Positions 6,501-57,293 of a DNA stretch of 64,000 bases are shown here, in pieces. The position numbers and the translations under genes were made by a program. This stretch comes from Alcanivorax sp. DSM 26293 (GTDB lineage Bacteria > Pseudomonadota > Gammaproteobacteria > Pseudomonadales > Alcanivoracaceae): contig NZ_FNUM01000009.1 in the NCBI RefSeq assembly GCF_900107995.1, positions 1 through 64,000 on the forward strand, given 5' to 3'. The notes under the pieces were generated by a model. The model saw only the letters and a program-made list of their open reading frames with translations, ran no database searches and was not told where the DNA came from. Position 1 is the first letter of the stretch. Each line of letters opens with the position of its first letter.

Positions 6501-6615
6501 CGTGCTGACACTCTTTATCATCCCGGTGTTGTACCAGTGGCTGGCACCCTATGCCTCGCCGGCGGATGCGGTGAAGCAGCAGCTGGAAAAAGAGATGGGT
6601 CAACCGCAGGAGTAG
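3520..6615 (+). CDS. RND efflux permease (HAE1-like)
   Basis: This 1031-residue pump has the standard AcrB-family length and uses the proton gradient to expel hydrophobic compounds from the periplasm or inner membrane. It opens with the RND start ISIKRPVFATVISLLIVVFG (TM1). The TM4 proton-relay aspartates are D400 and D401 in GLVVDDAIVMLEN, and the TM10 lysine is K920 in LMAKNGILIVEF. Two large periplasmic loops follow TM1 and TM7, as expected. It starts within the last codon of the adaptor gene. The TAG stop lies inside a GTAGGAGC repeat, so the annotated C-terminus may have been set by repeat insertion. Substrates cannot be inferred; solvent or drug efflux is usual for the family. Confidence 0.93.
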   Translation: MILSDISIKRPVFATVISLLIVVFGISALMKLSVREYPDIDPPEVSISVDYAGAAPEVIDTQIIQVIEGAVAGVEGVRKIESRSRLGSARTSVEFNLDRDVDVAANDLRDAVSRVLNRLPEEAETPVIAKSDADARPIIWVTLTSSTLAPQELTDFAERSLVDRFAVLDGVSEVFIGGERRYAMRVWLDRQSMAANQVTVTDIEQALRSNNVELPAGRLESQSRAFTVRADNRLSSVNEFEDLVVRRQGDYLLRVGDVARVELGVESDDTVLRANGETAIGLGIIRQSKANTVAVSDNVQAEIEAVRTSLPADISLDVNYDESLFIRASIKEVLVTLGISVVLVIAVIFAFLGNLRATLIPAVTIPVSIIGAFIGLGIMDFSINVLTLLALILAIGLVVDDAIVMLENIQRRIDEGETRLVAAYQGARQVAFAVVATTLTLVAVFVPISFMGGDVGRLFGEFGFTLASAVIISSIVALSLAPMLCSRWLHRHSVKELQGEGNAFERSLQKLNSGYARSLAAALGKPWPLVVGCVALCVVALLVFRGLPQELAPTEDRGVFIIPASAPQGSTAEYSLHHVKEVENIMAPLVESGEAERALSIVGFRGVTERAFSIVRLKDWGERDRSQQEIVNEVRGKLSQVAGLRAFAVNPPGLGQSAFDQALEVVVAGPDYDQVLAWSETLMEAMEENPGLTSIDTDFEQTQPQLDVKLDRERAADLGITATDVGQTLQAMFATLTASTYVDRGREYDVLLEAEKRNSQGPDDVLPIYLRAANGELVPFSSVVELTTTGDAPELRRVDRLPAITLSANLADGYDLAAAMTYVEEQARERLPLEARIGYKGMAEELQESAAAILITFVLALVIVFLVLAAQFESWIHPLIIMLTVPLALAGAVLAIRVTGDSLNIYSQIGMIMLLGLMAKNGILIVEFANQLRDQGLAVKEAIYQGAIVRFRPVLMTGVSTIFGAIPLVLATGAGAESRFTIGVVILGGLLFATVLTLFIIPVLYQWLAPYASPADAVKQQLEKEMGQPQE

Positions 6616-6636
6616 GAGCGTCGCTGGCGGCGCGAT
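6612..6636 (+). repeat. solitary REP, GCGCGAT class
   Basis: A single copy of GTAGGAGCGTCGCTGGCGGC plus the GCGAT tail, without an inverted partner nearby. Its TAG at 6613-6615 is the stop codon of the RND permease. Confidence 0.8.
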
Positions 6637-6666: not shown

Positions 6667-6820
6667 TTGCAAGCTACAAGCTTCAAGCTACAAGGCGCGA
6701 GAAAGGGTAGGACTGTATTACAGGCTGTGCCCGCGACCATAAAGTGTGGGGCGCGGAATCCATTCTCTTCAGTTTGGCTACGCGGCAGTTTCGCGTTGCA
6801 GCTTGAAGCTTGAAGCTTGC
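6667..6820. repeat. imperfect inverted repeat with AAGCTT-rich arms
   Basis: The left arm near 6667-6693 (TTGCAAGCTACAAGCTTCAA) and the right arm near 6796-6820 (TTGCAGCTTGAAGCTTGAAG) are imperfect inverses, and each arm is itself partly palindromic. It fills the gap between the RND permease and the YgjP-like gene and ends 10 bp before the latter's ATG. It lacks the GTAG head of the REP elements. Confidence 0.6.
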
Positions 6821-6830
6821 CGCTGTATTC

Positions 6831-7496
6831 ATGACTGACTACGAACTGATCCGCAGCAAACGCCGCAGCCTGGAGCTGCGCGTGCTGGACGATGGCCGGG
6901 TGCAGGTGCGGGCGCCGCAGCGGGCGTCGTTGCGGATGGTGCAGACGTTCGTGGATAGCCGCCGCCAGTGGATTGCCGATCAGCAACAGCGCCAGGCCAG
7001 TCGGCCCCGGCAGCGTTGGCAGGATGGGGCGGCCTTTCCGTTCCGCGGGCAATCGCTGACCATGGATGTGTCCGCCGGGCGCAATGCGGTGGTGGTGTCT
7101 GGCGGTTACCTGCAGATCCGGGTGCCGGAACCGGACAGCGAGCCAGCGGTAAGGCAGGCGGTGGAAAACTGGCTGCGCAAGCAGGCGCGGCCGCTGTTCG
7201 AAGACAGCATTGCCCGGCAGTTCCCCTGGTTTGCCAGCCAGGGTTATTCACAGCCGGTGTTGCGGGTGAAAAAAATGCGCACCCGCTGGGGGTCGCTGTC
7301 AGCCAGGGGCTACATCAACCTGAACATGGCCCTGCTGCACTATCCACCGACGGCGCTGGATTACGTGGTCATGCACGAGCTGTGTCACCTGCAACACATG
7401 GATCACGGCCCCGGCTTCCACGCCCTCATGGACGCCCGCATGCCCGACTGGCGCCAACGCAAACAACTCCTCGACCAGCCGCTTTTTCAACCCTGA
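6831..7496 (+). CDS. YgjP-like metal-dependent hydrolase (DUF45/M48-like)
   Basis: A 221-residue protein of the YgjP/WLM group. The zinc-binding signature is H182-E183-L-C-H186 in VVMHELCHLQHMDHGPGFH, with the third metal ligand likely in the downstream GPGFH. The preceding MRTRWGSLSARGYINLN is characteristic of this family. ATG 6831 was chosen because the in-frame TTG at 6810 lies inside the AAGCTT repeat; no strong Shine-Dalgarno is visible for either. The cellular substrate of the family is not well defined. It is a stand-alone gene between repeats. Confidence 0.8.
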   Translation: MTDYELIRSKRRSLELRVLDDGRVQVRAPQRASLRMVQTFVDSRRQWIADQQQRQASRPRQRWQDGAAFPFRGQSLTMDVSAGRNAVVVSGGYLQIRVPEPDSEPAVRQAVENWLRKQARPLFEDSIARQFPWFASQGYSQPVLRVKKMRTRWGSLSARGYINLNMALLHYPPTALDYVVMHELCHLQHMDHGPGFHALMDARMPDWRQRKQLLDQPLFQP

Positions 7497-7518: not shown

Positions 7519-7583
7519 GTAGGAGCGTCGCTGGCGGCGCGATAGCCCAACGTATGGAATCGCGCCGCGAGCGACGCTCCTAC
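7519..7583. repeat. REP pair, GCGCGAT class, 3' side of the RAYT gene
   Basis: GTAGGAGCGTCGCTGGCGGC and its inverse face each other across a 14-bp spacer. The right half reads GCGAG where the left has GCTGG, so the stems differ slightly. It lies 15 bp past the RAYT stop codon. Confidence 0.92.
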
Positions 7584-7598
7584 GGTTAAAATGTGATC

Positions 7599-8042
7599 CT
7601 ACAGCCAGATGGCATACCAATAGGGATAATCTTTGACGCTTTTTACCAAACCGGCTCGGAGCGGATTAGCGACGATATAGCGGGCAATTTGCAGGGCATC
7701 CTCTTCCTGTCGGAGCGCGTGGTCATGGAACCCCCGCTGCCAGATGGATTGCCCAATGGCTCGGGCAGTCTGGCTCTTTAGCATGCCTACTGTTTGCGAA
7801 AGGGAATGCTTATCGGACAGCTCCAACAACCAGTGAAAATGGTCCGGCATCACCACAAAGCATAGAGACATGCAGGCCCCTTGCTGGTCCAGGTTGAGGA
7901 AATTGCGCGAAAGCAGTCGTGCCCTGTCGGTATTCTCAAACCAGGGTATTCGGTTTCGGATAACTCCGGTGATCAGATAGTGCTGATGTGGTTGTGAGCA
8001 ACGCCCTTGCCTCAATCTGTATCCATGATGTAGCGAGTCCAT
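7599..8042 (-). CDS. REP-associated tyrosine transposase (RAYT, TnpA_REP)
   Basis: This 147-residue protein is a Y1 HUH single-strand nuclease of the IS200/IS605-related RAYT group, which recognises GTAG plus a hairpin and is thought to spread REP sequences. The HUH pair is H68-F69-H70 in VVMPDHFHWLLEL. The catalytic tyrosine is Y122 in ARYIVANPLRAGLV, the conserved Y-x3-N-P context of RAYTs. WQRGFHDHALR before it is also typical. The length is normal and no frameshift is seen, so it may be functional. The gene is a single-copy passenger between two inverted REP pairs whose sequence recurs across the window. ATG 8042 gives a normal RAYT N-terminus although its Shine-Dalgarno is weak. Confidence 0.92.
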   Translation of the reverse strand: MDSLHHGYRLRQGRCSQPHQHYLITGVIRNRIPWFENTDRARLLSRNFLNLDQQGACMSLCFVVMPDHFHWLLELSDKHSLSQTVGMLKSQTARAIGQSIWQRGFHDHALRQEEDALQIARYIVANPLRAGLVKSVKDYPYWYAIWL

Positions 8043-8122
8043 GGATTCAAGGGTGATGAGAGAGAGCTCGGGGAAAAAGCGTTAGCGGCTGAAAAGCCTG
8101 TAGGTAATGATCAAGCTTTTCC

Positions 8123-8185
8123 GTAGGAGCGTCGCTTGCGGCGCGATAGGCCAACCTAGGATCGCGCCGCGAGCGACGCTCCTAC
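8123..8185. repeat. REP pair, GCGCGAT class, 5' side of the RAYT gene
   Basis: GTAGGAGCGTCGCTTGCGGC and its inverse are separated by about 13 bp. The stems match the copy at 7519 apart from single-base changes. It lies 80 bp upstream of the RAYT start. Confidence 0.92.
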
Positions 8186-8266: not shown

Positions 8267-8470
8267 TTATTCAGCAACTACGTTAGCGGCCTGCGGACCT
8301 TTGGGGCCCTGCTGGATCTCGAAGGAAACCTTCTGACCCTCGGCCAGGGTTTTGAAGCCTGAGCCGGTAATTGCGCTGAAATGAACGAAAACGTCCGCAC
8401 CACCATCGTCCTGGGAAATGAAACCAAAACCCTTGGACTCGTTAAACCACTTCACAGTACCAGTAGCCAT
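8267..8470 (-). CDS. cold-shock protein, CspA family
   Basis: A 67-residue single cold-shock domain that binds single-stranded RNA and DNA and melts RNA structure. RNP1 is KGFGFIS (residues 13-19) and RNP2 is VFVHFSAI (residues 27-34). The start [16 protein letters not shown] is canonical. Upstream on the same strand lies about 190 bp without a gene, consistent with the long untranslated leader typical of csp mRNAs, and GAGG sits before the ATG. Whether it is cold-inducible cannot be decided from sequence. Confidence 0.95.
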
Positions 8471-9570: not shown

Positions 9571-9729
9571 GTAGGAGCGTCGCTCGCGGCGCGATAATCA
9601 GGGTTTCGAGTTGCGAGAAGCAAGTTTCGAAAGGCAAACCCCTATAAAGTCGCTCCCGGGATATGCTTTCCGAAACTCGCGTCTCGTGTCTCGTTACGGT
9701 TTCAATTGCCCCGCGAGCGACGCTCCTGC
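9571..9729. repeat. REP pair, GCGCGAT class, with long interior
   Basis: The left end is GTAGGAGCGTCGCTCGCGGC and the right end CCGCGAGCGACGCTCCTGC, with one base altered in the final CTAC. The interior again carries the inverted TCGAGTTGCGAGAAGC / GAAACTCGCGTCTCG arms seen at 2115 and 13296. Confidence 0.85.
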
Positions 9730-13295: not shown

Positions 13296-13410
13296 GTAGG
13301 AGCGTCGCTGGCGGCGCGATTTCGTAAGGTTCGAGAAACGAGAAGCGAGTTTCGAAAATCAAAACCTTCACGTAAAGGCTTGGTTATCGCGCCGCCAGCG
13401 ACGCTCCTAC
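13296..13410. repeat. REP pair, GCGCGAT class, with interior
   Basis: GTAGGAGCGTCGCTGGCGGC at the left and its exact inverse at the right. The interior includes GAGAAACGAGAAGCGAG and CGAAAATCAAAACC, which also occur in the elements at 2115 and 57139. Confidence 0.92.
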
Positions 13411-18985: not shown

Positions 18986-19011
18986 GATCGCGCCGCCAGC
19001 GGCGCTCCTAC
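18986..19011 (-). repeat. solitary REP, GCGCGAT class, reverse orientation
   Basis: ATCGCGCCGCCAGCGGCGCT followed by CCTAC is a single half-element. It ends 24 bp before the -35 of the mnmG promoter. With the compound element upstream it fills most of the 530-bp gap between nhaP2 and mnmG. Confidence 0.8.
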
Positions 19012-57138: not shown

Positions 57139-57293
57139 GTAGGAGCGTTGCTCGCGGCGTGATTTTGTGAGGTGCGAGTTACGAGATGCGAGTGTCGAAA
57201 ATCAAACCCTATCGCTTGAGGACCGGGTTTTCGCTCCCCGTGACTCGTACCTCGAAGCTGGGGGTATGATCGCGCCGCCAGCGACGCGCCTAC
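57139..57293. repeat. REP pair, GCGCGAT class, with long interior
   Basis: GTAGGAGCGTTGCTCGCGGC and a diverged inverse end with CGCGCCTAC. The interior carries GTGCGAGTTACGAGATGCGA, CGAAAATCAAACCC and CGTGACTCGTACCTCG, matching the 2115 element in order. It fills half of the 330-bp gap upstream of the acylase gene. Confidence 0.85.

Follow-up and report, generated by a model that had tools for sequence, protein, structure and literature searches.

Alcanivorax is an oil-degrading genus, and the window analysed here, a stretch of 64,000 nucleotides from one of its members, holds the gene of a REP-associated tyrosine transposase (RAYT) between two inverted pairs of REP repeats. Such a locus raises the question of whether the RAYT and its flanking repeats jump as a unit, or whether the RAYT stays in place and serves as the source of the REPs scattered elsewhere in the genome. 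A sequence-only reading had called the arrangement an intact cassette of 667 bp and suggested that it is a functional source of the dispersed repeats. The boxed arrangement was found as described, 667 bp being the outer span (7519-8185) of the RAYT and both flanking pairs, and the 147-residue protein has H68, H70 and Y122 at the numbers given. The recurrences of the REP class were also all present (2115, 6612, 9571, 13296, 18987 and 57139); four of these six dispersed sites are REP pairs, and 6612 and 18987 are lone REPs. The features are collected in Table 1. A wax ester synthase gene lies next to the locus, and among named relatives of the RAYT the closest are Alcanivorax records. RAYTs flanked by inverted REPs are already in print (Nunvar 2010, PMC2817692).

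Table 1 Features of the RAYT locus and of related repeats in the window.
Feature	Position	Strand	Description
REPIN, same class	2115-2267; partner REP 2243		103-nt spacer, heptad palindrome core
Single REP	6612-6636	+	GTAG head (6612-6615) overlaps the stop codon of an RND transporter gene and supplies its TAG
Long palindrome	6669-6820		arms of 7-nt period, (CAAGCTN)n; follows the 6612 REP
YgjP-like metallopeptidase gene (ygjP)	6831-7496	+	left neighbour, marks the conserved site
Left REP pair (REPIN)	7519-7583	7519-7543(+)/7559-7583(-)	15-nt spacer, downstream of the RAYT
RAYT gene	7599-8042	minus	REP-associated tyrosine transposase, 147 aa; ORF with HUH (H68, H70) and Y122
Right REP pair (REPIN)	8123-8185	8123-8147(+)/8161-8185(-)	13-nt spacer, upstream of the RAYT
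Cold-shock protein gene (cspA)	8267-8470	minus	right neighbour, marks the conserved site
REPIN, same class	9571-9729; partner REP 9705		109-nt spacer, heptad palindrome core; also in G004 at the same site
REPIN, same class	13296-13410; partner REP 13386		65-nt spacer, one heptad arm
Single REP	18987-19011	minus	1 mismatch to core
REPIN	57139-57293; partner REP 57269		2 + 1 mismatches; 105-nt spacer, heptad palindrome core
Heptad palindromes	2144-2239, 9607-9693, 13332-13357, 57168-57254		

The window protein belongs, by its sequence and its modelled fold, to the RAYT branch of the HUH-superfamily Y1_Tnp proteins and not to IS200. It matched PF01797 (Y1_Tnp) with 34.8 bits and passed the cut-off of 80 of the NCBIfam model NF047646 (REP_Tyr_transpos) with 142.5 bits, and its score of 25.8 bits against the IS200 model NF033573 was below the cut-off of 55. 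The sole PDB sequence match was 4er8, a TnpA-REP of the E. coli type with a bound REP hairpin. The same structure was the top fold match (E 1.4e-10, TMq 0.76, 27% identity) of the AlphaFold model of the RAYT (mean pLDDT 91.8, 40 sequences), followed by IS200/IS605 transposases. Among 40 RAYTs, Y122 and H70 were invariant and H68 was present in at least 90%. Purifying selection keeps the gene: the six pairs whose dS is below 1 gave a pairwise dN/dS of 0.085-0.185, the remaining pairs, which are near saturation, gave 0.06-0.13, and four pairs gave no dS estimate. Such strong coding constraint would suit any host function. One alternative is accordingly that the RAYT serves some other function in the host and no longer moves REPs, the REPs being relics that an ancestor and recombination had spread.

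A RAYT between inverted repeats also resembles an insertion sequence, and the 667-bp cassette could be read as an autonomous, IS200-like transposon that jumps whole. However, this RAYT is present as one copy in its own genome, where the other three Y1 proteins are each 51-54% identical to it, and in all eight RAYT-positive genomes of the genus it lies at the same site, between ygjP and cspA. Two identical coding sequences in G004 would suit a jumping unit, but they form a tandem duplicate together with part of ygjP (G004:C1:2722999-2724450). This duplication is also unlike a simple REP-REP recombination, because one of its junctions lies inside ygjP. An autonomous IS200/IS605 element was rejected on the single copy in the genome and the site fixed in the genus, and we regard a transposon that jumps whole as very improbable. 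The cassette is inherited at a fixed locus, and the name should not be taken to mean that the RAYT unit moves.

The other Y1 genes of this genome have repeats of their own. REPs of other classes adjoin two of them, GCGCCACTTGAGGCGCGAA at one and GCCTTGCTCGCAAGGCGAA with a tandem array at another, and beside the third a REP variant missed by the search pattern was spotted by eye. An additional observation was that another RAYT of this genome adjoins a tandem array of GTTGGAGC-class REP pairs, which has a 118-bp period over part of its length.

Inheritance of the locus was followed across 17 Alcanivorax genomes, 8 of which hold this RAYT with 72-100% identity. For G008, no ygjP was detected, more likely owing to an assembly gap, as a run of N adjoins the RAYT there. 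When a tree was built from the adjacent RND and ygjP genes (15 genomes, G008 and G010 being absent), both main clades contained RAYT-positive genomes, interspersed with RAYT-negative ones. Loss of the RAYT is the simpler reading since the two kinds of genome are mixed in both clades, and these comparisons suggest that the RAYT is vertically inherited at a fixed site and has been lost in some genomes.

Several RAYT-negative genomes were informative at this site. G006 and G009 are ~96% identical over 35 kb and differ by the RAYT. In G006, the left flank and left REP are joined to AAACAACG, which in G009 comes after the right pair's first REP; beyond AAACAACG comes the right flank, as if a second deletion had occurred. 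G003 has one REP pair, whose spacer, read by eye, is like that of the left pair and whose outer flank is like that of the right pair. The REP scars in G006 and G003 are consistent with RAYT deletion, and the flanking REP pairs may destabilise the locus, as recombination between them could delete the RAYT. No deletion scar was seen in G016 and G013, for which we only infer RAYT loss. The site was also rearranged or occupied in other ways. The orientation of the cassette in G011 is inverted with respect to G005 and G015, the site in G002 holds a different RAYT (57%) with its own, different REP class, that in G014 holds a pair of another REP class, and those in G016 and G001 have a different palindrome and no REP. 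In G013, another RAYT lies ~1.3 kb from ygjP.

We searched the whole genome of 3,706,254 bp for the 25-nt REP core GTAGGAGCGTCGCTNGCGGCGCGAT and found 161 copies with at most 3 mismatches (83 forward, 78 reverse). The reversed pattern gave 0 copies in the same genome, and the class is therefore not a product of chance. All 4 RAYT-adjacent REPs match the core exactly, as do 96 of the 161 copies overall; at the variable base they have G, C, T and C, so that the majority base G (65 G, 25 C and 6 T among the 96) is not enriched next to the RAYT. Closeness to the consensus, proposed as a check in the sequence-only reading, therefore does not tell the RAYT-adjacent copies from the others. On the GTAG strand, the palindrome after the GTAG head forms a 6-bp stem with a 4-nt loop. 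Folding of a lone 25-nt REP on this strand was no better than that of shuffles (z -0.40 and 0.24), and the flanking REP pairs fold into long hairpins (z -9.96 and -10.46). Neighbouring REPs were paired head-out in 57 of 59 cases, examined in 70 stretches of the genome and the window, which take in 127 of the 161 copies. Crude gene calls placed 5 of 14 REPs within ORFs, which look over-long, and no Rfam family reached its gathering score in the window.

The interiors of the 57 head-out pairs, or REPINs, were of several kinds: 22 were short (22 nt or less), 15 had a heptad palindrome (type A), 11 had a CACAGAG nonad palindrome (type B) and 9 were other. The mean number of mismatches per REP pair was 0.82 in short and type B REPINs and 3.0 in type A and other ones, both means being biased low as the sampled stretches were picked by near-perfect copies.

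The pairing of RAYTs with REP classes was then considered across the genus, where 68 strong and weak RAYT matches were found in the 17 genomes. The cognate study used 45 RAYT rows, namely 44 of the 45 strong matches (the second identical G004 copy was omitted) and one weak fragment, and left out the other 22 weak matches; the test itself covered 41 of the 45, with the fragment and three RAYTs without a pattern-found REP being dropped. RAYT distance and REP distance were correlated with a Spearman rho of 0.64, and 0 of 5000 permutations were as high in this Mantel test, which uses the nearest REPs of each RAYT pair. The REP distance was 0 or 1 in 57 of the 60 RAYT pairs with at least 68% identity, and for the 760 more distant pairs the median distance was 7, while 7% had a distance of no more than 2. 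In the tree, the eight RAYTs with the window REP class formed one clade with support 99/99. On these sequence comparisons, REP class appears to track RAYT lineage in Alcanivorax. As a separate observation, G003 has a second REP class, GCGCC(A/G)CTTGAGGCGCGAA, in which the RAYT-adjacent form (CCAC) is in the minority, with 3 exact among 64 copies at up to 2 mismatches; most copies listed are CCGC, the same as beside the RAYT of G013, which is another species.

REP number and quality differed with the presence of the RAYT. At up to 2 mismatches, there were 19-138 REP copies in the 8 RAYT-positive and 3-65 in the 9 RAYT-negative genomes (medians 74.5 vs 13, p 0.009), the medians of perfect copies were 48.5 vs 3 (p 0.003), and the share of perfect copies in this set was 56-97% vs 0-76% (p 0.002; p 0.03 without the RAYT-negative genomes having fewer than 13 copies), all p values being optimistic because the genomes are related and the dose test counts related genomes as independent. 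The sequence-only reading had held that relatives with this REP class but no RAYT of this group would speak against a source role. Such relatives were found, with 48 copies in G003, 65 in G006, 46 in G016 and 33 in G013 at up to 2 mismatches. A strict co-occurrence of class and RAYT is thus not seen; RAYT loss fits the scars in G006 and G003, and G013, with 25 perfect copies, goes against the trend.

REPs that persist without the RAYT, those of G013 among them, are what would be expected if the RAYT had some other host function and the REPs were a relic, and the degraded state of the heptad-core REPINs points the same way. However, the higher share of perfect copies in RAYT-positive genomes argues against it, and so does the comparison of G006 with G009, which have five REP sites in common in ~40 kb. 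The copies of the RAYT-positive G009 were cleaner at four of them; the fifth has an intact REPIN in G006 and a single REP in G009. We therefore consider it unlikely that the RAYT has ceased to move REPs. REP density near the RAYT was 3.4- to 21.6-fold the genome mean in regions of eight genomes, with the cassette counted. This regional enrichment gives no support for a source role, because the region of the RAYT-negative G006 also reaches 10.4-fold, and in G004 minus the cassette the enrichment is weak, with 5 REPs vs 1.4 expected within 50 kb, a number equalled by 535 of 10000 random points.

The earlier suggestion of a functional source of the dispersed repeats is supported by the cognate pairing, by the coding constraint and by the higher copy numbers where the RAYT is present. 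The locus is very probably a REPtron, composed of a domesticated, vertically inherited Y1/HUH RAYT and its cognate GTAG REPs, in which REPINs multiply and the RAYT stays between ygjP and cspA. The multiplying units would be REPINs, two head-out REPs around a spacer. By analogy with the published in vitro work on E. coli TnpA-REP, the RAYT would bind the hairpins of single-stranded REP DNA, use Y122 to cut close to GTAG and paste REPINs at other places. After deletion of the RAYT, the orphan REPs would decay, loss presumably preceding decay. At the six window sites, no precise pair of an empty and a filled REPIN site with clean junctions was found in the seven relatives compared, which had other repeats, a remnant or no usable anchor; no target duplication could therefore be read.

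The REPIN interiors were less ordinary. Every repeat of the heptad palindrome, (CGAGNNN)n, is made up of a constant tetramer and a variable trimer. At up to 2 mismatches, the type A pattern gave 316 arms in the window's own genome vs 3 in the control, which would correspond to ~160 hairpins given two arms per hairpin. Arms placed beside a class-1 REP were 57 of these 316 (at least 18%), and 20 of the 29 type B arms in the genome (at least 69%). Of 20 more type A sites away from listed REPs, inspected by eye, 4 were in other-class REPINs, 2 in degraded same-class pairs and ~10 alone. The CACAGAG nonad palindrome was also seen by eye inside REPINs flanking the RAYT of G005, G009, G011 and G015.

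At up to 1 mismatch, type A was present in 15 of the 17 genus genomes and absent in G001 and G002. Most relatives had 17 to 404 arms, with the maximum in G005, and the pattern was well above its reversed control (0 to 20 over the 17 genomes) in 14 of 17, G009 being at control level (13 vs 12). Exact matches in a sample of 293 genomes from the order were numerous only in Alcanivorax (4 of 5 sampled); there were none in 7 other family members, and 1 and 3 in two remote genomes. Many type A copies look by eye to be bounded by CAGT and ACTG. In 40 two-armed elements, compensatory pairing of the heptad trimers was not above shuffles (435/5000 at the best shift, 1210/5000 in register). The CAAGCTN palindromes at the 6612 site differ in length by exactly 7 nt between G000 and G004, and the heptad copies at the 9571 site seem one heptad apart between G005 and G015. 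It is possible, though we would not yet call it probable, that the RAYT reads only the REP ends and that REPINs are open carriers whose interiors are swapped between lineages. The nonad would then travel mainly inside REPINs, and the CAGT-ACTG heptad would be an independent dispersed family, numerous only in this genus and with perhaps 200 hairpins per genome at most, which enters REPINs belonging to several REP classes and lengthens or shortens by entire heptads.

Intergenic regions of G012, G011, G016, G001 and G008 contained other long palindromes, whose arms repeat every 7 nt (CAAGCTN, CAAGTTN, AAAGTTN) around a longer inner part; several of them contain TGTGCCCGCGA. From one species to another, these gaps are occupied by different periodic palindromes. 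In the open-licence literature searched, no paper was found that names Alcanivorax REPs or heptad or other periodic palindromes, PMC4666352, searched for the genus name, being among those covered.

In the main, the system is of a known kind, and for Pseudomonas and Stenotrophomonas the same conclusions have already been published. As in the RAYT/REPtron outlined in PMC2817692, there is a Y1 HUH transposase with inverted REP flanks, a GT(A/G)G head and REPs scattered over the genome; unlike that REPtron, each Alcanivorax flank is a full REP pair and not a single REP. The pairs are like the REPINs of Pseudomonas fluorescens SBW25 (PMC3116915) in being hairpin-forming inverted REP doublets with a spacer, but the Alcanivorax spacers are mainly 13-16 nt or ~90-124 nt, the longer ones with two kinds of periodic palindromic core. 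Structured spacers within REP dimers are likewise in print (PMC3733652). REP recognition and REPtron biochemistry have been described in PMC8266576, and the window RAYT resembles TnpA-REP (PDB 4er8) in its fold, HUH motif, tyrosine and GTAG-tagged hairpin substrate, the substrate being predicted here. The Alcanivorax REP, with its 6-bp stem and 4-nt loop, is nearer the short REPs put in group 3 by that paper, a likeness of REP shape only. REP abundance depends on the cognate RAYT in Pseudomonas and Stenotrophomonas, where orphan classes were attributed to RAYT loss (PMC3686654), and E. coli without a RAYT has fewer REPINs (PMC8049555). The same dependence appears to hold in Alcanivorax, which, unlike the systems as presented in those two sources, shows deletion-fitting scars at a fixed site in two genomes. 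Less ordinary are the exchangeable palindromic cores in REPIN interiors and the heptad hairpin family, which was unmatched to anything described in the literature searched.

For domesticated transposases, this locus offers a clean natural experiment in which inheritance and loss have left unusually clear traces: one fixed site, eight gene-bearing genomes, and close relatives with deletion-fitting scars, an inversion, a duplication and matching differences in repeat state. It would allow a test, in a harmless genus, of whether REP populations are kept fresh by an active RAYT. Should the heptad palindromes prove to be a separate family, they would add a repeat design in which a constant tetramer is joined to a variable trimer.
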